Source of the DNA: Phormidesmis priestleyi ULC007
GTDB taxonomy: Bacteria; Cyanobacteriota; Cyanobacteriia; Leptolyngbyales; Leptolyngbyaceae
NCBI RefSeq assembly: GCF_001895925.1
Contig: NZ_MPPI01000010.1
Coordinates: 141,390-188,523, forward strand
DNA: 47,134 nucleotides
Reading direction: 5' to 3'
Shown: piece after piece, positions 20,233 through 46,868 of the stretch
Layout of the letters: every line of letters starts with the position of its first letter
Position numbering within the stretch: position 1 is the stretch's first letter
The notes under the pieces: model-generated
Databases searched by the model: none
Seen by the model: only the letters and a program-made list of their open reading frames with translations
What the model was told of the DNA's origin: nothing
Made by a program: the position numbers and the translations under genes

Positions 20233-22098
20233 ATGAAGCTATCCCACTGGACTAAATTTCTCAGTCTGCTGAAACGCGGGTATCTAAAGTCCAGGCTTAA
20301 CCGCTTCATGCTGATCAGCCTGCCTTTATTTGTTTTGACGCTTTCACTCGTCGTTTCTACCTCAAATGGGATGCTGCCCAAACTATCACTGATTAACCCC
20401 GCAGGAGTAGGTCTGCTGGCTGCGAAGAGATTTTCGCCGATTCTCTCCAATTTTGATATTTCTTTGACTCCTTTGTGTCGCCAAGGCAACTCGATCGGAT
20501 ATCAAGCTTCGACCTCTATGGGCAACCCTGCGGCGCTTGGTGGAGCAAATCACTCGGTTCGAGATGCAAACGTGAGCGGTCAATTAGAAGCGATCGCCCC
20601 AGCTTGGAAAGATACGACCGCTGCCCCACCGTTCCCTCAAATTCATGGGCGGGCACGATTGGCAAAAGTTCCCGTGGTCATGTATCACGACATCATTGCC
20701 GAGAAAAAAGTTTTCTTTGATGTCACGCCCGAAGAGTTTGAGGCAGCGCTGCAATTAATTCAAAAAAATGGCCTCACGCCGATTAGTTTAGATCAGTTAG
20801 TCGAACATCTCAAGACCGGAATTCCGTTGCCCAAAAAGCCGATCGTGCTGACCTTTGACGATGGCTATCAAGGACATTATCGATTTGTGTATCCCCTATT
20901 AAAGAAGTATGGATATCCCGGTGCGTTTGCCATTTACCCATCTAAAATGGGCACGACAAAAGGGCGATCGAGCATTAGCTGGGCACAACTTCGAGAAATG
21001 GCAGCCGATCCATTAGTGACGATCGCGTCTCATAGTCTCACTCATCCTCTCGATTTGAGAGAGTCTACAGACGCGCAGCTTCAGCAGGAATTTGTCGAGT
21101 CGAAGCGCATTTTAGAAACAGAACTCAGTCAATCGATTAAGTATTTTGTTTATCCTTCTGGCAAGAATGACGATCGCGTTCAGCAAGGAATTCAGCAAGC
21201 TGGATATGAAGCCGCCTGGACGATGAATGATGAAGAAACTCGATTTGCTGAAGATTCAGAGAATTTGTTGACGATCGATCGCATCGGTCAGTCTCAATTA
21301 GCAGAGGTAATCGAAAAAGCTGATGGCGGGCCGGCTCTCAGCTTTTTGGGCGATTCATCAAACTTTTATGCGCCCGTTCAACTGACTCGCACGACAGTCA
21401 GTAAGGTGCCGTTAATTTTTGCGTCTGGCGGCAAACCGATCACCATTCACGCAGACAAGCGCTATCAAGTTCCTGAAATTATCGCTAAAACGAGGGCGAT
21501 CGCAGCGGTTGACGGGACTTTTTTCTCGCTCAAATCTCTCGATTCTAATCAAATGATTGGCCCAATTTTCAGTCAAACCACAGGCAAATTCATTCCCGGA
21601 AATCCTAAAGAACTGCCTCTGATTCAAGGACGACCCTTGGTGCTGATCAACGCCAGCACGGTGCGGTTTGTTCCCTTTGATCCCAGTCGGCACAACACCC
21701 AGGCTGGCATGGAGAGTGACTTACCTGGGCTAACTGATGCTTTTGTTGCGGCGGCTTGGCTGGTCAAAGACGGTCTGCCTCAAGACGCTCAAAGCTTTGG
21801 CAAACTGTATGGATTTGATGCGGAGCGCGATCGGGCCTTTTGGGGCATCGACTGGGCAAACCGTCCGGTAGTCGGCGTATCGGGTGATTATGTCAACTCG
21901 GTAAAGTTTGGAGAAGTGCTTAGTCGAGCTGGATTGCGAGATGCGATCATGCTCGATTCGGGAGCCAGCGCCTCTCTTGCCTATCAAGGTGAGTCGATGA
22001 TGAGTTACATACCTCGTCCGGTTCCTCATGTCGTCGCGCTGTTGCCGCCTGAGTCAGGTGCAGACGCTGCTTGCAAAGTGGCATCTAGCCAGAACTAA
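20233..22098 (+). CDS. Polysaccharide deacetylase fused to phosphodiester glycosidase (NAGPA) domain
   Basis: 621 residues with an N-terminal signal anchor (about 25-45). The NodB-type deacetylase domain begins VPVVMYHDII and has motif 1 LTFDDGYQGHY (about 206-215), motif 2 ASHSLTHP with the H-x3-H metal ligands (about 265-272) and motif 3 YFVYPSG. The C-terminal part has AAVDGTFFSLKS (about 425) and MLDSGASASLAYQGE (about 574), matching the NAGPA/phosphodiester glycosidase family (PF09992). Deacetylation of an N-acetylated sugar and removal of a phosphodiester-linked GlcNAc are the family reactions; the natural glycan is unknown. Its stop overlaps the stop of the convergent acetyltransferase gene. 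Confidence 0.88.
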   Translation: MKLSHWTKFLSLLKRGYLKSRLNRFMLISLPLFVLTLSLVVSTSNGMLPKLSLINPAGVGLLAAKRFSPILSNFDISLTPLCRQGNSIGYQASTSMGNPAALGGANHSVRDANVSGQLEAIAPAWKDTTAAPPFPQIHGRARLAKVPVVMYHDIIAEKKVFFDVTPEEFEAALQLIQKNGLTPISLDQLVEHLKTGIPLPKKPIVLTFDDGYQGHYRFVYPLLKKYGYPGAFAIYPSKMGTTKGRSSISWAQLREMAADPLVTIASHSLTHPLDLRESTDAQLQQEFVESKRILETELSQSIKYFVYPSGKNDDRVQQGIQQAGYEAAWTMNDEETRFAEDSENLLTIDRIGQSQLAEVIEKADGGPALSFLGDSSNFYAPVQLTRTTVSKVPLIFASGGKPITIHADKRYQVPEIIAKTRAIAAVDGTFFSLKSLDSNQMIGPIFSQTTGKFIPGNPKELPLIQGRPLVLINASTVRFVPFDPSRHNTQAGMESDLPGLTDAFVAAAWLVKDGLPQDAQSFGKLYGFDAERDRAFWGIDWANRPVVGVSGDYVNSVKFGEVLSRAGLRDAIMLDSGASASLAYQGESMMSYIPRPVPHVVALLPPESGADAACKVASSQN

Positions 22099-23276
22099 AA
22101 ATGATCAGGCATCCAGGGAGGCGATCCTGCAAATAGTTGGGTGGCGATCGTCAAAGCAGAATCGGTTGCTGTTAAGCGATCGCACCCCTGTAACTGACGA
22201 GGAGAAAACAACCCAGTGTAAAGCGGTGATAAGCTGCTGACCTCAATCTGCAAGTCTCCTCGCCCTCCATCGGTCACAGTTCCAACGCCATTGGCAACGG
22301 TCAGAATTAATTTTCCCCCATTGGCAGGCAGTAACGGGTCTTGAATCTCAAAATGCAATTCTGCTGCGATGCCTGCTGGATATTTGCGGGCTTCAAGAGC
22401 TTGCCGAACATTGACAATTCGCAGCATCCAGCGAGTCAGCGATCGAATTTTGACATTGTTTTGCTCTGGCAGAAACAGGGTTAACGTGTCGATCGCAGCG
22501 CTTCGCCACTGAATTGTCTCAATTTGAGAACGATGAGCCGCCATAAAAGACCAAAATCGTCTGACCGCAGCAGGCGTTAGCAACACCCAATCTTTCACCA
22601 CCAGCCGCCAGCGATCGCCTTCACACTGCTGCTGAAAAATGATGTAGCCTTCTGGCTGGGCGGCTGTCCCCAGTCGATAAGCATAAGGAGGAATGTCTTT
22701 TCGAGATTCTAACAGCCCTTGCCAAATCGCAGAATTGCGATCGAGAAAGCCGTTAATTTGTTGGGCTTGCTGTTGATAAAGGGCGGCAAATTCAGTCGGG
22801 TCAAGCGAGATTGGCTCGATCGGCATTGAATCGTCTCGAAGCTCAATGCTGCTGGTGGCAATCTTCCAGGTGCAAAGGGTTCCGGCTTGTTCATACCCGG
22901 CTTTGCGGTAGAGAGGTTGAGCCGCCGAATACAAAACTGAAAGCGGCCTTCCTTGAGCGTGAAGTTCTTGCAGCATGTTTTGCATCAGGGCGATTGCTGC
23001 CCCTTTGCCTCGATAGTCGGGCGCAATTCCCACTGCTGCAATGCCAACCATTGGCACACACGCCGCACCGTACCACTGCCCCATTTGCAGCAGCCCCAAC
23101 CCGCCAATCACTCGCCCGCGATCGTAGAGAATCCGAACGTTCTCGCTCCCGATTCGGTTGAGGTAAACCGATTCATCATTGGGCGGACTGTTAAAGCATT
23201 GTGCCAAAACCTGTCCGAACTGCTGCACTTCGGTATAATCTGCTGGAATGCGATACTCAAATTGACCCGAAGACAT
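22095..23276 (-). CDS. GNAT acetyltransferase of the Eis type with SCP2-like C-terminal domain
   Basis: 393 residues. The N-terminal GNAT domain contains the acetyl-CoA loop VGIAPDYRGKGAAIALMQ (about 83-99) and LYSAAQPLYRKAGYEQ. The second GNAT-like module and a sterol-carrier-like C-terminus (LHFEIQDPLLPANGGKLILTV) complete the Eis architecture. In mycobacterial Eis, a Tyr and the free C-terminal Phe carboxylate are catalytic. Here Y123 is in the corresponding GRFGYG-like loop and the protein ends PDHF, so both are preserved. Role: acetylation of amine substrates, native target unknown. The stop (TAG) overlaps the TAA of the convergent gene by two bases. Confidence 0.85.
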   Translation of the reverse strand: MSSGQFEYRIPADYTEVQQFGQVLAQCFNSPPNDESVYLNRIGSENVRILYDRGRVIGGLGLLQMGQWYGAACVPMVGIAAVGIAPDYRGKGAAIALMQNMLQELHAQGRPLSVLYSAAQPLYRKAGYEQAGTLCTWKIATSSIELRDDSMPIEPISLDPTEFAALYQQQAQQINGFLDRNSAIWQGLLESRKDIPPYAYRLGTAAQPEGYIIFQQQCEGDRWRLVVKDWVLLTPAAVRRFWSFMAAHRSQIETIQWRSAAIDTLTLFLPEQNNVKIRSLTRWMLRIVNVRQALEARKYPAGIAAELHFEIQDPLLPANGGKLILTVANGVGTVTDGGRGDLQIEVSSLSPLYTGLFSPRQLQGCDRLTATDSALTIATQLFAGSPPWMPDHF

Positions 23277-23284
23277 TAAGACTC

Positions 23285-23366
23285 CTCATTCTGATTGCTG
23301 GACGATCGTAAGTCAGAATCTCTCAAATGTAAGCTGCCCAGGCTGAGAAAAACGCTGTCTAGCTAC
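23285..23366 (+). repeat. Imperfect direct repeat, left copy
   Basis: Begins CTCATTCTGATTGCTGGACG and ends CTGTCTAGCTAC. A diverged copy is at 24602-24690 in the same orientation. Shared blocks are CTCATTCTGA, GACGATCGTA, AGGCTGA, AAAAC and CTGTCTAGCTAC, in the same order. The two copies bracket the toxin-antitoxin genes. The left copy sits directly upstream of the acetyltransferase gene and may carry its promoter. Confidence 0.65.
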
Positions 23367-23442
23367 ATAAAAACGAAATAACGAGCAGTTAATTCAAAAT
23401 GCTATTCTAATGAAAAGAAATTGCTAAAACACACTAAAATAT

Positions 23443-23664
23443 ATGACTAATTTATTGACAGAAGCTTTCAGAAAAGCACGGGATTTACCGGATTATTTGC
23501 AAGATGAACTTGCTGAACAATTAATCGAAGATGTTGAAAATGAAATAAAATGGCAGCAACTATTATCCCGACCGCAGAGTATGAAGTTAGACGAGCTTGC
23601 AGAAAAAGCTCTCAGTGATTCCATGAATGGTAAGACTAGGGAAATAGGTTTTGATGAACTATGA
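23443..23664 (+). CDS. Antitoxin-like small protein
   Basis: 73 residues, MTNLLTEAFRKARDLPDYLQ through AEQLIEDVENEIKWQQLL to KTREIGFDEL. This pattern is familiar from the antitoxin half of cyanobacterial RelE/ParE-type toxin-antitoxin modules, where the toxin starts at a four-base overlap with the antitoxin stop. Here such an overlap (ATG at 23661) opens only a 19-codon frame, MKSAIHCTSNVLL..., so the toxin has been lost. It lies in an accessory stretch bounded by the imperfect direct repeat. Confidence 0.6.
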   Translation: MTNLLTEAFRKARDLPDYLQDELAEQLIEDVENEIKWQQLLSRPQSMKLDELAEKALSDSMNGKTREIGFDEL

Positions 23665-23693
23665 AGTCAGCAATCCACTGTACCAGTAACGTT

Positions 23694-24176
23694 CTACTGC
23701 GTCAGAATTTGAGTCAATAATTCTGGTGCAATCCGAAATCCAGCTTTGTTTATCAAGTCGTCAATAACAAGCTGTAATGATTCGATCTCACCTAGCTGTT
23801 TAGCCCGAAGCAAAATTCCTAAAACTCCCGTTACTTTCAATCCCAGAGACTTGGCAACTTTTCTGCCTTCACGCTCATCCAGAAGCGTCCAATCTGCCTT
23901 AAGCTCAATGGCAAGGGCGATCGCTTCAGCTTCTCCTCGATCCAGTGTCTGCTTCAAAAGTTGAGCAAGGGGTTCGTTACTTACCTCTTGACCCTGAATC
24001 TAACCCGATGAAATTGCGTCACGAATTGCTTGAGAACCCGATCGCTCTTCACTAACTTTCAACTCATCTAACACAGCATTTGGAACCAGAATTTCACCAA
24101 ACTGCTGATGCAAGAGGATAAGCTGATTCACGATCGCCAGATTGAGAATTGGCGAAGTGTTACTCACTACGGGCAT
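23694..24176 (-). pseudogene. DUF3368 (PIN-like) toxin with in-frame amber stop
   Basis: From ATG (MPVVSNTSPILNLAIVNQL) the frame reads through VLDELKVSEERSGSQAIRDAISSG and hits TAG at 24002-24000. It then continues in the same frame through EVSNEPLAQLLKQTLDRGEA and ADWTLLDEREGRKVAKSLGL to the stop. The family usually has Trp at the stop position, so one TGG-to-TAG change explains it. Read-through length is 160 residues, the family norm. DUF3368 proteins are PIN-domain-like RNase toxins; the acidic residues (SNTSPI, EAEAIALA, LLDE) are intact on either side. The gene is inactive unless the stop is suppressed. It overlaps the UPF0175 antitoxin gene. Confidence 0.85.
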
Positions 24177-24414
24177 AGCTTAAATCATCATCTAATTCTG
24201 TAAAACCGTAATGCCGTACTACTCCACGAAGAGCCAGCAGTTGCCCAAACTCGTATTTATCCATCTCAGCTAATTCTCGTGCTTTACCAAAGGAGAGAAT
24301 GTCTTGTGTATAGAGCGCAATGGCTAATTCTCGACGTAATTCCTGCTCAATACGCGGTTCTGGTAAGCGAAGAGCTTGCACAATAGAGTCAGAAATTGAG
24401 ATCTGTAGTCCCAT
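24160..24414 (-). CDS. UPF0175-family antitoxin
   Basis: 84 residues from MGLQISISDSIVQALRLPEP to LDDDLSYARSE. UPF0175 proteins are the usual antitoxin partners of DUF3368 toxins, and here the two genes overlap by 17 bases, as in intact pairs. I chose the internal ATG because it has an AAGGAAA ribosome site, whereas an upstream ATG would add 15 atypical residues. The middle contains a ribbon-helix-helix-like helical pair, KARELAEMDKYEFGQLL. It appears intact although its toxin is broken. Confidence 0.85.
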   Translation of the reverse strand: MGLQISISDSIVQALRLPEPRIEQELRRELAIALYTQDILSFGKARELAEMDKYEFGQLLALRGVVRHYGFTELDDDLSYARSE

Positions 24415-24488
24415 TTTCCTTAAGGTCAAAACGATTTGTCTGATATTATCATGGTACACCTGACGACTTCAGTTGTTAGCTTGGCACA

Positions 24489-24575
24489 GTCTAGCAACTC
24501 AAATGCAGCAGACGGTTGAAAGCCTCTGGTGCTGAGTTTAAGGTTATCTACCACCGCTGATTTGAGCCGTTAGGT
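24489..24575 (+). other. attC-like imperfect hairpin (site 1)
   Basis: Left arm GTCTAGC-AA-CTCAAATGCAG, right arm CTGATTTGAG-CC-GTTAGGT. The L-like arms pair with one extrahelical G. The AA/CC spacer is unpaired, as the central spacer is in integron attC sites. The right R box GTTAGGT fits GTTRRRY; the left box GTCTAGC is degenerate. Length 87 bases, the same as the site downstream of vapC. Orientation plus. Confidence 0.5.
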
Positions 24576-25032
24576 GTTGCTAAGTGGATTCCGAAAAACT
24601 TCTCATTCTGAATTTTGCTTGACGATCGTAGGTTAAAAGACTAGCTTAGATGCAAACTGCTCAGGCTGAAGGAAAACACTGTCTAGCTACTGCAATGCTC
24701 AGGGCGATCGCATCGAAAATTGAGTGTAGCAATCAAAGCACGGGCAATGCTAGGGTAAATAACTCTGGTGCAGGGAACCTGTGGGCTGCCAAGTCGAACT
24801 CAATCTGAGGATATGCGGACAGTTTTCTTGCCGATCCACCTGATCCAGGATGATGGGCAAAATCTTTCTCTCTGAAAAGAAGTTGTGCCGCTTAAGCTGT
24901 TGGTTGGGGCAATGACCTGGAGGCTATCGGTAAGACGGGTCTCTAAAGGTATTGGCGGGGCTGTTGTCGTTAGATTAGATCACGTCTCAGTAAAAAGTTA
25001 TTGAAACTTCTGGTAGAGAGGTAGCTCAGTAA
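24576..25032. other. Non-coding stretch without a recognisable gene
   Basis: No convincing reading frame, tRNA or rRNA. It holds the second copy of the imperfect direct repeat (24602-24690) and then about 340 bases of AT-average sequence in which I see only short, broken frames on either strand. It may be decayed gene material. Confidence 0.5.
24602..24690 (+). repeat. Imperfect direct repeat, right copy
   Basis: Diverged second copy of the element at 23285-23366, in the same orientation. It starts CTCATTCTGAATTTTGCTTG and ends CTGTCTAGCTAC, with several small indels relative to the left copy. It lies just beyond the attC-like site. Confidence 0.65.
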
Positions 25033-25068: not shown

Positions 25069-25080
25069 AAGTAGATTTTG

Positions 25081-25872
25081 ATGAATTTGCCAGAGTTTGA
25101 GCGTGTAATTTACAAGCGCAACCCTCTTATAGAGGTTGTCTGTCAATTTCGCTTTCCGCCCATACTCAAGATCTCTCATCAAGAGCCAGTTGAGTTTCAG
25201 GATGAGATTAGGTTTCACTACCCACTTTTTGAGACGACCAGAGCGCAAGTTCCATCAGAAATCTCAAAGATTGTTCAACAATTCGGCTTGCCGCTGCAAA
25301 ATGACGTTGCCTATAGCTTTAAGTCAGAAGATCAAAGATGGAATCTATCTATTACTAAAGATTTTATTGCTCTAACTACTTCTTCATATGAGCGATACGA
25401 GCAATTTAAGCAACGTCTTGAAGAAGCTTTAACGATTTTTGAACGTATATATAAGCCGTCTTTTTATACAAGGGTGGGTCTACGGTATCAGGACTTAATT
25501 GTTCGTTCAAAACTTGGAATCGAGGATAAGAGCTGGTCAGAGTTAATTGCTAAACATATTGCTTCAGAGCTGTATGATCCAGAACTTTCTTCTTCAATTC
25601 AGACAGTAGTAAAAAACCTAATTTTAAAGACAGAAAATGGACAAATTAATTTAACTCATGGACTTGTTGCTGTGAAAGAGTTACAGGAAACCAGTGATGA
25701 GATTGCCTACTTATTTGATGCTGATTTTTACACAGAACAAAAAATAGAGGGAAATGGAGATGTCTGGAACGTACTCAATCAGTTCAACCAATCTGCCGGA
25801 AGGCTCTTTAGGTGGAGCATTACAGATGCTCTCCATAACGCCATGCAACCCCAATCAGTTGACTCAGTATAA
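25081..25872 (+). CDS. TIGR04255-like protein
   Basis: 263 residues. The start MNLPEFERVIYKRNPLIEVV followed by CQFRFPPILKI has the pattern of the sporadically distributed TIGR04255 family (Y-kNPl-eVi-q-rFp-iL), whose function is not established. The centre reads FYTRVGLRYQDLIV and the end is hydrophilic. No signal peptide, no membrane segment, no obvious catalytic residues. It heads three co-directional genes with no CGATCG and AT-rich composition, in contrast to their surroundings, so recent acquisition is likely. The next gene overlaps its end by over 100 bases in another frame. Confidence 0.65.
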   Translation: MNLPEFERVIYKRNPLIEVVCQFRFPPILKISHQEPVEFQDEIRFHYPLFETTRAQVPSEISKIVQQFGLPLQNDVAYSFKSEDQRWNLSITKDFIALTTSSYERYEQFKQRLEEALTIFERIYKPSFYTRVGLRYQDLIVRSKLGIEDKSWSELIAKHIASELYDPELSSSIQTVVKNLILKTENGQINLTHGLVAVKELQETSDEIAYLFDADFYTEQKIEGNGDVWNVLNQFNQSAGRLFRWSITDALHNAMQPQSVDSV

Positions 25873-26253: not shown

Positions 26254-26847
26254 ATGGAAGAACGGGCTATCTACCAACTATCACATAAAAGTTCCTCGCT
26301 AAGGCAAGGGGAAATCTTGACAGGTGTAATTCAATACAAGCCTGTTGTTAGTGAGCTATTACAGAAAGAGCAAGAGTTATCTTTTGATGCTGTTCTTCAC
26401 CCTTACGCAATTGTAGTCACTCAAGATTGTGATCTTGATTGGGACTACAGAGCTAGGCAAACTGCAAGTAGTCAGCCATCGAAACTCTTAAACTCAGTCA
26501 TTTTGTGTGAAATTGCAACTGCAAGAGAAATCAGAGATACAGCAGATGATATGAATAGTGCAGCGTGGAAGCTAGTAGTCTCTCATCGTCATGAAAGGTT
26601 CTACTTCTTTGAGAAAATTCTTGCTGAATGTGAGATAGAGCAGGAAGGTTTGCCTGAACTCACTGCTGATTTCAAAAAAGTTTTCGGTATAGATGCGGCG
26701 ACTCTATACCGTCAAATTGAACTCGGTGTAGTTACACGAAGAACAGTTTTAGCTAGTCCTTACCTGGAACATTTTTCCAGGCGATACCATAGCTTTCATA
26801 GCAGAGTTGCCCTGCCCTTCCAGTATGAAAGTGAGCGCGAAGGGTAA
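26254..26847 (+). CDS. Hypothetical protein with TQDCDLDWD motif, third gene of the cassette
   Basis: 197 residues, no signal peptide or membrane segment. Features: RQGEILTGVIQYKPVV near the N-terminus, the striking ATVVTQDCDLDWDY-type stretch (around residue 60) with one Cys among acidic residues, and FSRRYHSFHSRVALPF near the end. From memory, a (S/T)QxCDL core recurs in uncharacterised proteins of accessory islands, but I cannot assign a family. It is probably co-transcribed with the two upstream genes. Possibly a metal- or nucleotide-binding protein; no function is claimed. Confidence 0.55.
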   Translation: MEERAIYQLSHKSSSLRQGEILTGVIQYKPVVSELLQKEQELSFDAVLHPYAIVVTQDCDLDWDYRARQTASSQPSKLLNSVILCEIATAREIRDTADDMNSAAWKLVVSHRHERFYFFEKILAECEIEQEGLPELTADFKKVFGIDAATLYRQIELGVVTRRTVLASPYLEHFSRRYHSFHSRVALPFQYESEREG

Positions 26848-27012
26848 AAGTACCTCTGTGCTACGCGGTAAAACGACTTGTTGGAGCCGACCCTTGAGAG
26901 GTTATCTGTTGAGATATTCTAAGTTATTTACGACGGGTGAGTTTGGTCGTTGGCTCGTCAACCCTGAAGGTTTAAACTAAGTTTAAACTAAGTTTTAGAT
27001 ACGATCGCCCCA

Positions 27013-27699
27013 CTACAACGCTTCAAGAACTTGCCCAGACACTTTAATTTGACTCGAACTGAATCCCGCTTCGTCCAGATTATCTAAAAAAGCCCGATCG
27101 TGATATCTACCATCCTGCGCGATCGCCTGCTGATAAGCCTGTTTAGCCAGCGATTGTTCTTTGTTGTTCCAGTATGCGATCGCCAGTGCCACCCAAGGAT
27201 GAGGATTATTCGGCTCTAGTTTCGCTGCCCATTTTGCAGACGCGATCGCCGAATCGTAGGCAGCTAATCGCCAAAACGCCAAACTGAGATTGTAGTGAGC
27301 GATCTCATTCTCTGGCGCAAGTAGGGTTGCCCAAGTGTGTACCATTACTGCGTCTGTCAAGCGATCGCTCACCAGATAGACGATTCCCAAGGCGTTAGAA
27401 GTCTCGACTTCAAAGGGGTTGAGTGAAATCGCCTGTTCTAGAGTTTCTGCCGCCAATCGGTCTTGCTTTGCTAAATGCAGCGTCCATCCTAAACTCACGC
27501 GACCTTTGGTATTGTTTGGCTCAAGCTCAACCGCTTTTTGAAATGCGGCGATCGCTTCCTCAAATCGCCCTTGATCTCGATATTGAATGCCGCGCTCACG
27601 ATATTGAACCGAGGTGAACGCCAGCAGAGGTTTGGCGTTTAGAAAACTGCTAGCCAACAGGATCACGATTAAGAAGTCTCGAATTTGAGGGACGCGCAT
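27013..27699 (-). CDS. Exported tetratricopeptide-repeat protein
   Basis: 228 residues. An N-terminal hydrophobic segment FLIVILLASSFLNAKPLLAF acts as a signal peptide or anchor. Four to five TPR units follow: QYRDQGRFEEAIAAFQKAVE, LEPNNTKGRVSLGWTLHLAK, then NPFEVETSNALGIVYLVSD, NEIAHYNLSLAFWRL and NPHPWVALAIAYWNNKEQSL. Probably a periplasmic interaction scaffold. It is divergent from the ABC exporter to its right with about 145 bases between. Confidence 0.85.
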   Translation of the reverse strand: MRVPQIRDFLIVILLASSFLNAKPLLAFTSVQYRERGIQYRDQGRFEEAIAAFQKAVELEPNNTKGRVSLGWTLHLAKQDRLAAETLEQAISLNPFEVETSNALGIVYLVSDRLTDAVMVHTWATLLAPENEIAHYNLSLAFWRLAAYDSAIASAKWAAKLEPNNPHPWVALAIAYWNNKEQSLAKQAYQQAIAQDGRYHDRAFLDNLDEAGFSSSQIKVSGQVLEAL

Positions 27700-43925: not shown

Positions 43926-44204
43926 ATGGCTCACAAGAAAGGTACAGGCAGTACTCGCAACGGACGCGACTCTAACGCTCAACGTCTAGGTGTCAAGCGC
44001 TACGGTGGACAGGTTGTTCTCGCAGGCAATATTTTGGTACGTCAACGTGGCACCAAGATTCACCCTGGCAATAACGTGGGTCGCGGGAGTGATGACACGT
44101 TGTTTGCGCTTATCCCTGGCGTTGTCACCTTTGAACCGATGGCAAAAGGTCGCAAGAAAGTCAGTGTTTACGCGAAAGTCGAAGCTGTAGCTGAGGCGAC
44201 TTAA
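43926..44204 (+). CDS. rpmA: Ribosomal protein bL27
   Basis: 92 residues, [20 protein letters not shown] followed by [21 protein letters not shown] and [17 protein letters not shown]. The N-terminal tail of bL27 reaches the peptidyl-transferase centre. It carries AHKKGTGST as expected for a mature protein without a processed leader. It is in an operon with rplU. The attC-like site begins 3 bases after its stop, so accessory DNA is inserted immediately behind this core gene. Confidence 0.97.
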
Positions 44205-44207
44205 ACG

Positions 44208-44294
44208 GCTTAACGTTCCGATTGAGCGGCTGTCAGCAACCTCTGCATCCACACTGGGGATTTTCGGCAGTCCGCTCCGGCCGAGTTATTATGC
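44208..44294 (-). other. attC-like imperfect hairpin (site 3), downstream of vapC
   Basis: On the minus strand the arms are GCATAAT-AA-CTCGGCCGGAGCGG and CCGCTCAATCGGAAC-GTTAAGC. The right box GTTAAGC fits GTTRRRY exactly, and the left box GCATAAT is near RYYYAAC. The GAGCGG/CCGCTC stem has a one-base extrahelical A. 87 bases, starting 11 bases after the vapC stop on the coding strand. Confidence 0.6.
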
Positions 44295-44305: not shown

Positions 44306-44698
44306 TCACCACGCTGCTGTTTTCAGACTCTCCACTTCTTGAAAATGAGCATCGCGTGTTACTAAAATTACAGCGTGTTGCAGCGCAAGGGCTGCAATCC
44401 AGACATCATTCTCAGGTAACGGACGGCCCTTGAGCCTTAACTTATTTTTGACCTCACCGTATTGCCGTGCGGTTTCAGCGTCACATACCAATATTGTGCT
44501 GCCAGCAACTAATTCATCAACTCTTGCTAAGTTTGCTTCAAATCGTCCTGACTTTCTGGCTCCATAACACAGTTCACCAATGACAATGCTTGGAATGAAA
44601 ACTTCACTGGCTTGAGCAAGACTGTCTTTGACGATCGCCTCATCTGAAAAAAGCGCAATAACGATGTTGGTATCAAGCAAAAACCTACCACTCATCAA
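44306..44698 (-). CDS. vapC: VapC-type PIN-domain toxin
   Basis: 130 residues; Met-2 may also start. The PIN catalytic residues are present: D9 in FLLDTNIVIALFSDE, the E in VIGELCYGARKSGRFEAN, the D in PLPENDVWIAALAL and the late D in LVTRDAHFQ. VapC toxins are RNases cutting tRNA or rRNA and are neutralised by VapB. The start overlaps the vapB stop by 14 bases, so the pair is translationally coupled. Apparently intact, unlike the toxin genes elsewhere in this window. Confidence 0.9.
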   Translation of the reverse strand: MMSGRFLLDTNIVIALFSDEAIVKDSLAQASEVFIPSIVIGELCYGARKSGRFEANLARVDELVAGSTILVCDAETARQYGEVKNKLRLKGRPLPENDVWIAALALQHAVILVTRDAHFQEVESLKTAAW

Positions 44699-44912
44699 TA
44701 TCTACCTGCTCACAATCTTGCTCGATCGTCTCACGCATTAACTGAAGGTCGTCTGAGGGAATTGAACCAGCGAAACGTAACAATTGCTGCCCTGGTATAC
44801 CTCGAACTTCCGCTTTTACTAGCGATCGAACGAATTCAAGCACCTGCCTTTGCAAGGGCTGAGGCATAACTTTCAACTGTTCAACAACCTCGTCGATGAT
44901 AGGAATATTCAT
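44685..44912 (-). CDS. vapB: VapB-like antitoxin
   Basis: 75 residues, NIPIIDEVVEQLKVMPQPLQ and RQVLEFVRSLVKAEVRGIPG to QDCEQVDIDEW. This N-terminal helix pattern is typical of antitoxins coupled to VapC in cyanobacteria. The C-terminus is acidic and should bind the toxin. The stop overlaps the vapC start. There is no separate DNA-binding family I can name; autoregulation is expected but not shown. An attC-like hairpin lies about 110 bases upstream. Confidence 0.8.
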   Translation of the reverse strand: MNIPIIDEVVEQLKVMPQPLQRQVLEFVRSLVKAEVRGIPGQQLLRFAGSIPSDDLQLMRETIEQDCEQVDIDEW

Positions 44913-45022: not shown

Positions 45023-45107
45023 GCATAACGGCTCAATCAGAGGCGACGAGAAAGCCAGAAACGAAGCGCGAGGACTTTGCTCGTCCGCTGCATTGGAGTT
45101 GTTATGC
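45023..45107 (-). other. attC-like imperfect hairpin (site 2), downstream of the Rpn-like gene
   Basis: On the minus strand: R'' GCATAAC, AA, CTCCAATGCAG...GACGAG; then CTCGTC...CTGATTGAG, CC, R' GTTATGC. Both R boxes are exact reverse complements. CTC-AAT-CAG in one arm pairs with CTC-C-AAT-G-CAG in the other, leaving a C and a G unpaired, like the extrahelical bases of attC, and AA/CC forms the unpaired spacer. It begins 38 bases after the stop of the Rpn-like gene. Confidence 0.65.
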
Positions 45108-45145: not shown

Positions 45146-45916
45146 TTAATTTTGTGCAGGATTGTCAATTTGCTGCTGAAGTTGCTGTAACTCCTCAAGC
45201 GATAGCCCTGTTATACGAGCGACAGTTGCGATCGGTAAGCCTTCACGTAAAGAGTTAGTAGCAATCTCTCGTTGTTTCTTGACCTCACCTTCTGCCAGAA
45301 TCGAACGATAAACAGTAGACTCTTGCATAACGTCCCTCCGCAATACCCGATAAATGATCTCGTCTTCCAATTTTAACCCAGCTAAAATCCCTGATGCTGC
45401 CATCAAGTTTGCCTGGGTTCGAGGATCTGCAATCTGATCAACTCTCTGGGCAGCTTGGCGCAACGTTTCCTCCGCATCTGCACTTTGAGCCAGAACTGCA
45501 AAGGGAATCAGCCCCGGATATTGCAGAAAGAGTGAAGCAGGTTGCTCCCATAAGCGAATCACATCAAACTCATGGCGAGTGCGTTCCATCGTAAAGCTGG
45601 TCTGATAAACCAAAGGGGATGCAGTCTGCTTGAGGTAAATGACTACTTGGTGCATTGGCTTCGCCGGATCTCTTCGGTAGCCTCGCAACCGATAATCCGT
45701 CACGCGAAACGGAATATTGTCTTTCGGAAGCGTTTGAAACTCGATATGCAAAATGGCTTCGTCTGATTCCAGGAAGATCAGGGCATCAGCGCGAATCGGA
45801 TCAAGGGACAGTTCCGAGGGTTGGAGTTCTGTTAGCGTAACAGCTTTCCCCAGTAGCCAACTAGCGAAGTCAGCGGAGAAGTGTTCAGCTAGAAATCGAC
45901 AGGTATCATCGTACAT
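45146..45916 (-). CDS. Rpn-family PD-(D/E)XK nuclease/transposase-like protein
   Basis: 256 residues. The nuclease core carries RADALIFLESDEAILHIEFQT (D48, then E58-x-Q60), the D...E-x-(Q/K) pattern of Rpn-type recombination-promoting nucleases, and TDYRLRGYRRDPAKPMHQVVIYL. The C-terminus has repeated helical segments and the VARITGLSLEELQQLQQQ motif common in this group. Proteins of this kind promote RecA-independent recombination in E. coli; the cyanobacterial role is unknown. It overlaps a gene remnant on the same strand upstream by 11 bases. An attC-like site follows its stop. Confidence 0.8.
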   Translation of the reverse strand: MYDDTCRFLAEHFSADFASWLLGKAVTLTELQPSELSLDPIRADALIFLESDEAILHIEFQTLPKDNIPFRVTDYRLRGYRRDPAKPMHQVVIYLKQTASPLVYQTSFTMERTRHEFDVIRLWEQPASLFLQYPGLIPFAVLAQSADAEETLRQAAQRVDQIADPRTQANLMAASGILAGLKLEDEIIYRVLRRDVMQESTVYRSILAEGEVKKQREIATNSLREGLPIATVARITGLSLEELQQLQQQIDNPAQN

Positions 45917-46646: not shown

Positions 46647-46708
46647 TTCTACGGCAATCCAGCAACTATTTCCTAGATTGCCCAACTCTTCACAACGGTC
46701 TAACTTCT

Positions 46709-46868
46709 TTTTAGAGAGAAACTTTCCGCATATCCATCTCAAAACGGGTGGATCGGCAGAACCCTTCCGCCTACCACTCTCAATCCGATGGATCGACAGA
46801 AACTTTCTGCATATTACACCGCCCCAGATGGATCGGCAGAATCTTTCCACCTATTCCCAGGGGCTTGC
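46709..46868. repeat. Four-copy 40-bp tandem repeat, degenerate
   Basis: Copies begin at 46709, 46749, 46789 and 46829. Copies 2-4 start TGGATCG(G/A)CAGAA, and all share the block AGAA-CTTTCCGCAT-like (with variants CCCTTCCGCCTA, ACTTTCTGCATA, TCTTTCCACCTA). The spacing is exactly 40 bases each time. Copy 1 lacks the TGGATCG start. The array lies upstream of the lipoprotein gene. Confidence 0.75.

Follow-up and report, generated by a model that had tools for sequence, protein, structure and literature searches.

What is the hairpin at 24489–24575 of the window (the whole 47,134-nt stretch of Phormidesmis priestleyi ULC007 DNA analysed here), and how did the toxin-antitoxin genes beside it get there? 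A preliminary description had called it the third of three attC-like hairpins and had suggested that two accessory islands were delivered by the same kind of mobile cassette, or else that the hairpin is a dispersed repeat family. attC sites are recombined by the integrase IntI as a folded bottom strand; the box next to the cassette follows the consensus RYYYAAC and the far one GTTRRRY. The available part of PMC7923331 gives the cassette-side box as RYYYACC. The three hairpins are as follows (top strand given; the models R1 and R2 are described below).

24489–24575, plus strand: predicted attC of the UPF0175/DUF3368 cassette; R1, R2 (E 9.5e-19) and covariation
44208–44294, minus strand: predicted attC of the vapBC cassette; R2 E 1.1e-13
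45023–45107, minus strand: predicted attC of the preceding cassette; R2 E 2.4e-10

The preliminary description had located the hairpin to the base: its paired arms and a GTTAGGT box (plus strand, 24569–24575, fitting GTTRRRY) are found there, and the R2 match covers them. On the minus strand the site reads ACCTAAC-GG-CTCAAATCAGCGG ... CCG-T-CTGCTG-C-ATTTGAG-TTGCTAGAC. Its arms hold two unpaired extra bases, T and C on this strand (A and G on the plus strand), and the extrahelical G reported earlier is the plus-strand one. The 5' (cassette-side) box, GTCTAGC at 24489–24495, is one base off RYYYAAC, in agreement with the degenerate left R box that had been noted, and the other two hairpins do lie on the opposite strand as had been said.

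All three hairpins fit R1, a covariance model built partly from them. To avoid this circularity we used R2, a covariance model made from 32 attC sites of the same genome, none of them inside the window; R2 recovers the three with the E values given above and adds a fourth, weak match at 26868–26955 (E 0.048). Among the 32 R2 sites, 89.1% of arm cells are paired versus at most 41.2% when one arm is slid by 1–3 columns, 16 of the 22 pairs show changes on both sides, and cells changed on both sides number 132 versus a shuffled mean of 43.7. The two unpaired bases hold fixed places across the attC alignments, and the core pattern TAACGGCTCAAN{0,4}CAGNGG occurs four times in the 5.68-Mb genome versus zero for the reversed pattern. 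The folding energy of 24489–24575 is unimpressive (z -1.19 and -1.57 on its two strands), the pattern TTGAGYYRTTANGY with one mismatch allowed does no better than its control (132 versus 156), and Rfam at gathering thresholds yields zero matches within the window. A home-made hairpin scan with relaxed boxes gave no excess in real over reversed sequence, which is why covariance models were used instead; only the structure-plus-sequence model provides decisive evidence for the attC call. Judged from its sequence, the hairpin at 24489–24575 is a genuine integron attC with its top strand on the plus strand; recombination by IntI was not assayed.

The two minus-strand sites belong to a second island, with the following genes.

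44306–44912, minus strand: vapBC-type cassette genes, PIN toxin 44306–44698 and small partner 44685–44912; Pfam PIN
45146–45916, minus strand: Rpn-family nuclease cassette gene; NCBIfam TIGR01784

Here attC 44208–44294 starts 3 bp past the end of the L27 gene rpmA (43926–44204; Pfam Ribosomal_L27). The two vapBC proteins are 82% and 71% identical to those of a pair in an integrase-adjacent array on contig C38, which has an attC at the same place (L010:4579–4665).

The host genome (5.68 Mb, 118 contigs) encodes two full-length TIGR02249 integrases above the curated cut-off, on C58 and C38, plus two fragments, and the array adjoining the C38 integrase carries attC sites of the same design as the window hairpins. 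R1 at E ≤ 1e-3 finds at least 53 places genome-wide; since only part of the first-look candidates was scored (150 of 1022 here), counts from the genome searches are lower bounds. The contig pairs C41/C113, C62/C69 and C101/C118 have identical attC/attI match scores at mirrored or equal positions; they are probably assembly duplicates at contig ends and were counted once, so that without the sites on C113, C69 and C118 at least 47 distinct attC sites remain, 24 clustered and 23 single. The far box starts with GTT in 39 of the 47, and the near box ends with AAC in 39 as well. A same-direction ORF ends within 75 bp before the attC at 33 of 47 sites versus 4 of 45 on the other side; attC 24489–24575 itself is preceded by an antisense gene pair and not by such an ORF. 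For 40 of the 47 sites, the longest ORF within 350 bp on the cassette side was searched against Pfam. Matches included PIN toxins, GNAT, isochorismatase, methyltransferases, a BsuBI/PstI-type restriction enzyme, a DRT-type reverse transcriptase, pentapeptide proteins and others, and some ORFs had none. Only six of the 40 are of toxin-antitoxin or HEPN type (one of them, BrnA, under the Pfam cut-off), so the toxin-antitoxin link is not exclusive. It follows that copies of the hairpin are not always beside toxin-antitoxin genes, a possibility that the preliminary description had raised, while its expectation that they lie by accessory genes and not at random places holds, given the ORF orientation and the accessory nature of the genes that could be named. 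The label of dispersed repeat family applies only in the sense that the 47 distinct attC sites are dispersed. The proposal that the same kind of mobile cassette reached both islands is supported by the vapBC relative with its attC in the C38 array and by a relative of the UPF0175/DUF3368 pair with its attC in an array of another genome, G008.

Large defence genes occur as integron cargo in two cassette positions, a DRT4/6-like reverse transcriptase on C48 (L114:2559–4136) and a fused BsuBI/PstI-type restriction-modification gene on C54 (C54:20450; L113:1409–3928). On C53 a group II intron lies within an attC, on the bottom strand at ATTGT/GTACGCCC (L015:2002–3907; the same as L001), recognised by Rfam group-II-D1D4-3 and D1D4-1 and by reverse-transcriptase/maturase ORFs; the insertion is at TTGT/T, the position described for group IIC-attC introns in the portion of PMC7923331 at hand. 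A ~140-bp sequence starting CGACAGCGCCATTTAGTTCACTTGT, 93–100% identical, directly follows the R box at five attC sites (C38:2459, C41:52839, C58:1135, C62:211816 and C105:151278), on C38 with two DDE transposase ORFs after it; it is possibly an insertion sequence landing beside attC, or a common cassette start. On C29 (C29:75684–77140; L013:11684–13140) three similar upstream regions with TTRAGCTGTTATGT stand ~0.5–1 kb apart; they are not among the R1 attC matches and by eye resemble repeated genes.

At C58 an attI of imperfect repeats lies directly beside intI, upstream of the cassette, and ends in CTCTCTAAAAAGAAG/TTAGCT. Cassette loci that lack intI carry this sequence as well, and two of its copies are in the window:

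24796–24886, plus strand: predicted orphan attI, core CTCTCTGAAAAGAAG/TT; R3 E 8.7e-14, orthologous attI in P. priestleyi BC1401
46699–46793, minus strand: predicted orphan attI of the second island, core CTCTCTAAAAAGAAG/TTAGAC; R3 E 9.5e-21

R3 is a sequence-only model of 11 attI sites from the host genome and BC1401 (G001), with no window sequence. The expected crossover in the first attI falls between 24882 and 24883; beside the second lies an additional repeat unit at 46795–46860 (R3 E 2.3e-9), and no intI was found in the ~340 bp between that attI and the contig end. The window contig has no TIGR02249 match at E ≤ 0.001, and the definition of a complete integron, satisfied at C58, is not met at either window island, where no intI adjacent to attI or cassettes was detected. 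In the host genome R3, with E ≤ 1e-3 as the limit, finds at least 15 attI-like loci (150 of 1317 first-look candidates scored), 13 with E under 1e-6: one beside the intact intI of C58, two beside intI remnants (C54:172993 and C62:209514) and 12 without detected intI. A tblastn search covering 14 of the 15 found no intI trace at E ≤ 1 at 11; for the remaining one, C80, only the genome-wide family search applies, and it found no intI there. A same-direction attC follows 11 of the 15 at 551–2535 bp, a count that includes the weak attC 26868–26955 at the window pad, added by hand; at C112 only the right-end motif described below follows, with no attC. No opposite-direction attC lies within 6 kb downstream of the 14 attI-like loci examined, and the C80 contig has no R1 match. 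With the limit relaxed to E ≤ 0.1, R3 gives 18 distinct places in the host genome, 16 of which were analysed for a following attC. C80 (E 6.9e-4, repeat part only) and C116 (0.09), both on contigs without an attC match, were left out; the weak C74 (0.02, then attC) and C106 (0.05, then the motif) were kept; and the direction at C62 was taken from the core-holding match (E 1.0e-4), a partial opposite match scoring slightly better. A same-direction attI was detected in the 6 kb upstream of only 13 of the 47 host attC sites.

The identity of this family was judged at intI loci, 12 of 14 of which come from other genomes. Just upstream of intI, R3 has a match at E ≤ 1e-3 in 10 of the 14, or 9 of 13 independently of C58, which was in the training set; it misses L280, L286 and the C38 integrase (L006), and is weak (E 0.028) at L278. 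The printed intI-locus sequences consist of repeats and then a G/TT core. Place beside intI, G/TT core and polarity towards attC together identify the R3 family as predicted attI, the window copies being without intI and recombination not having been assayed.

BC1401 is the only genus-mate in our set of 58 genomes. Loci A (window), B (C54), C (C102) and E (C48) keep their flanks, attI and right end in BC1401, and their interiors have no match there better than E 0.5; on the left, similarity ends 5–6 bp past the AAG core at B and C and about 20 bp past it at E. At E the left flank (2.46 kb at 87%) and the right flank (3.3 kb at 86%) enclose interiors of 1743 bp versus 1053 bp in the two species, with no match better than E 0.79. 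At B a left flank of 2.6 kb ends 5 bp past the core, and similarity begins again with the right arm of the last attC; C behaves likewise, its flanks being 266 bp (left) and 766 bp (right). At A both species have the GNAT flank and the attI, with a less well conserved core; similarity returns inside the last attC and continues through the right end and the TPR gene, and the genes between differ. Several loci of both genomes share a ~45-bp sequence (GTTAGCTCGTCAGACCC..AAAGCCAAAGTTAAGTTTTAGATGCGATCGCC) that comes after the last attC. As it stands after the last attC and is conserved with the right flank in two species, it is better read as the putative right half of the pad; the same two points disfavour reading it as an extension of the attC or as an independent repeat. 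Copies of this right-end motif with a GTTARNT-like box before them, for which no complete attC was found, lie at C106:33011, C112:8648, C39:4005, C29:53284 and C106:39070 (L217–L220, L224), and are probably remnants of emptied or decayed pads. An empty pad, in which the right end would directly follow the attI core, was seen neither in 29 attI ends inspected nor, by a pattern with up to 3 mismatches, in the 58 genomes. C39 was rejected as an empty-site comparison because both genomes carry different genes there, and for several other host sites one flank or none was found within the BC1401 stretches examined.

We consider it probable that the hairpin belongs to the UPF0175/DUF3368 cassette as its attC and that the genome carries a distributed integron (a term coined here), in which about a dozen orphan attI pads are served by IntI in trans, the trans action being inferred. 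The two intact integrases occupy separate places, and roughly a dozen attI pads would be scattered without an integrase gene of their own; IntI in trans would join the folded bottom strand of an attC to the AAG/TT core of a pad's attI, and the resulting order would be leader, attI, cassette(s), attC and conserved right end. That one or two integrases serve about a dozen conserved pads in trans, each exchanging its own small cassette set, is a reading to which we give only slightly better than even credence. Attribution of the sites to attC, attribution of the repeats to attI from their place beside intI, their polarity towards attC and the different content of four orthologous pads come from sequence comparison, and present-day work of IntI on orphan pads is an inference. 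Evidence for recombination at orphan attI is indirect only, namely that at orthologous loci the content becomes unrelated close to the core. Weighing against the main reading are the position of attC 24489–24575 upstream of its neighbouring attI and its degenerate cassette-side box, the weaker core at locus A, the lack of any empty pad in the searches above, the attI-like places elsewhere with no same-direction attC downstream or with such attC upstream, the intI loci that R3 misses, the small share of host attC sites with a detected attI, the lack of intI at E ≤ 1e-20 in BC1401 and the two intI remnants.

The locus of the hairpin, between the GNAT and TPR genes, departs from the simple order of a pad. 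Besides attC 24489–24575 and attI 24796–24886 it comprises:

22095–23276, minus strand: GNAT-type acetyltransferase gene, conserved left flank; Pfam, 85% DNA identity to BC1401 up to 23364
23270–23364, plus strand: left copy of the ~100-bp leader that precedes the attI pad; diverged copy of 24595–24700, by eye
23443–23664, plus strand: 73-aa ORF, antitoxin-like by appearance only; module common to G018
23694–24176, minus strand: DUF3368 gene; Pfam PF11848 on the 3' part, two ORFs in one frame
24160–24459, minus strand: UPF0175 gene, antisense to the cassette direction; Pfam PF03683, E 1.9e-23
24595–24700, plus strand: right leader copy, intact and continuous into attI; sequence comparison with the left copy and BC1401
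25078–25872, plus strand: TIGR04255-family gene, second cassette; NCBIfam
26254–26847, plus strand: 197-aa ORF, family unknown, ending 20 bp before the degenerate attC; open reading frame
26868–26955, plus strand: putative degenerate attC, the array's last; R2 E 0.048
26949–27010, plus strand: pad right-end motif, conserved (GTTGGCTCGTCA...TTTTAGATACGATCGCCC); alignment with BC1401 and other motif copies
27013–27699, minus strand: TPR protein gene, conserved right flank; Pfam

The order is leader, 73-aa ORF, DUF3368/UPF0175, attC 24489–24575, leader, attI, TIGR04255 cassette, degenerate attC and right end, so that attC 24489–24575 lies upstream, not downstream, of the attI, with a gap of 220 bp. 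In BC1401 the same interval has one leader (single-copy at the orthologous locus), one attI and two attC matches, and a clear attC (L088:1342–1430, E 1.4e-9) holds the position of 26868–26955. Neither the 73-aa nor the 197-aa ORF has a Pfam or NCBIfam match, and the DUF3368 gene is split by an in-frame stop at 24000–24002. Both genes of the pair are antisense relative to the cassette direction. In G008, the pair and its attC are 76% identical to ours over 645 aligned columns, the pair is again antisense before its attC, and R1 finds four attC sites in a single direction in the array that holds it. A related pair in G041 has the sense direction, ~40 bp before an attC (L094); in G004 the pair (82% identity) runs into the first attC arm, the remainder of the attC being lost; at L091, L092 and L095, in other genomes, no attC was found beside the pair in the stretches examined. 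The left border of this module is ~23667, where the similarity to G004 starts. The second module, with the 73-aa ORF, spans ~23365–23666 and is common to G018, where the right arm of an attC and the 45-bp motif precede it.

We infer that the UPF0175/DUF3368 cassette is the leftover of a duplicated pad: the pad would have been duplicated and its first attI lost, with the toxin-antitoxin cassette stranded between the leader copies. A tandem attI-attC arrangement in G053 resembles the proposed duplicate. Because the cassette lies outside its pad, its route of arrival is uncertain. It might instead have been placed at ~23667–24575 by an off-target attC x attG insertion, its attC being unrelated to the adjoining pad. 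Such an insertion is one proposed route to CALINs (PMC8618304, in the part available), and it would suit both the position outside the attI-to-right-end interval and the breaks in homology at 23364 and near 23667 rather than at attI. A single attG event would not, however, explain why the cassette sits 220 bp from an old pad and between two leader copies; we regard this route as unlikely, though it remains possible.

Similar sites are widespread. With the host genome included, attC matches (R1, E ≤ 1e-3) occur in at least 54 of 58 genomes and attI-like R3 matches (E ≤ 1e-4) in at least 41, and intI matches at E ≤ 1e-20 in 36, 31 of them above the cut-off. In stretches of eight other genomes, 37 of 53 attI-like places have a same-direction attC within 3.5 kb; around the 53, attC sites downstream are 58 in the same and 0 in the opposite direction, and upstream 24 and 3. 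Without five loci chosen for attC or homology the figures are 32 of 48 and, downstream, 51 to 0. No same-direction attC was found within 3.5 kb downstream of 16 of the 53, several of which are near contig ends. BC1401 and G053 have no intI at E ≤ 1e-20 despite many attI-like and attC matches, and the pads of BC1401 are accordingly seemingly not fed from its own genome now; in the G053 stretches L290, L292 and L295, attI and attC alternate in one direction.

Clusters lacking intI have been proposed to be degraded integrons. Both window islands resemble CALINs in carrying attC-bounded accessory cassettes away from intI, and satisfy the usual form with at least two attC within 4 kb and no intI nearby (24489–24575 with 26868–26955, the latter weak at E 0.048, and 44208–44294 with 45023–45107). 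They differ from CALINs in that several clusters of this genome have a recognisable attI of their own, some with a conserved right end, and in that four loci hold different cassettes between both ends in a related species. It is possible that these are ordinary CALINs nonetheless, attI and cassettes being decayed complete integrons, the content differences old and nothing acting in trans now; the intI remnants at C54:172993 and C62:209514, and the pads of BC1401, a genome without intI at E ≤ 1e-20, could be taken that way. Yet 11 of 14 loci retain no intI trace by tblastn, and loci B and E are similar to BC1401 without a break from over 2 kb of flank to the attI core, so any intI loss there would need to be older than the split of the two species. 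Decay of this kind we find doubtful as the explanation. A further reading, that the R3 element is some other repeat near cassettes, such as a cassette promoter or a regulator of the integrase gene, draws on the imperfection of the repeats and on matches that cover the repeats only and not the AAG/TT core, but we consider it very improbable: the element stands immediately upstream of intI, towards the cassettes, at 10 of 14 loci (9 of 13 independent of training), its repeats end at the G/TT core in the printed sequences, and at loci B, C and E similarity stops within about 20 bp of that core. A dispersed terminator or REP-like hairpin unrelated to integrons would fit the wide spread across the genome but is ruled out by the array context, and conflicts with the design shared with integrase-adjacent attC, the fixed polarity to the preceding gene and the compensatory changes.

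How does the distributed integron compare with known systems? For the papers cited here only part of each text was available, and the comparisons are limited to that part. Like a sedentary chromosomal integron, the genome has an intact IntI beside attI and attC-bearing cassettes (C58, C38), but its attC sites are spread over many small loci and not gathered in one long array. Integrons typically have one attI close to the integrase (PMC9024848, PMC9668308). The Shewanella prophage M16-3 holds a complete integron and one CALIN with its own attI (PMC9892861), that is, an intI-less cluster starting with the same attI as the complete integron of the replicon; that is one extra copy in one prophage, whereas here a single genome has at least 12 attI-like loci without detected intI, and many genomes have similar sites, of which orthologous ones differ in content. 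In the Delta-attI-type gene cassettes of mobile integrons (PMC12901181), attI sequence has likewise left its usual position and remains a substrate of IntI there, but as fragments inside unusual cassettes, whereas here attI with repeats and core heads cassette groups. Insertion at attG (Loot et al. 2024, as cited in PMC11023631) likewise scatters cassettes genome-wide by IntI in trans, at sequences that are neither attC nor attI (PMC12444791), unlike the conserved attI-like pads with repeats of this host. In-trans mobility of cassettes from intI-less clusters is already accepted (PMC9668308, PMC12444791), and a cyanobacterial attC model exists (PMC8352920). Thus attC, CALINs, cyanobacterial integrons and toxin-antitoxin cassettes are known; the new point is that a single genome has many intI-less clusters that retain an attI of their own. 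We found no report of a genome-wide set of orphan attI sites in a literature search that did not extend to preprints and most subscription journals; the closest case that it turned up is PMC9892861, and the absence of reports is not proof of novelty.

Use of the pads in trans would give a genome many parallel insertion points, with different neighbours. Clusters would gain a searchable start and end, and orthologous pads would form a natural record of cassette replacement. Since the cassette genes include toxin-antitoxin, restriction-modification and DRT-type reverse-transcriptase genes, this bears on defence-gene exchange in cyanobacteria. The arrangement may explain many clusters currently filed as degraded integrons and, with attI-like sites in at least 41 of 58 genomes, may be a common cyanobacterial way to hold and swap accessory genes.
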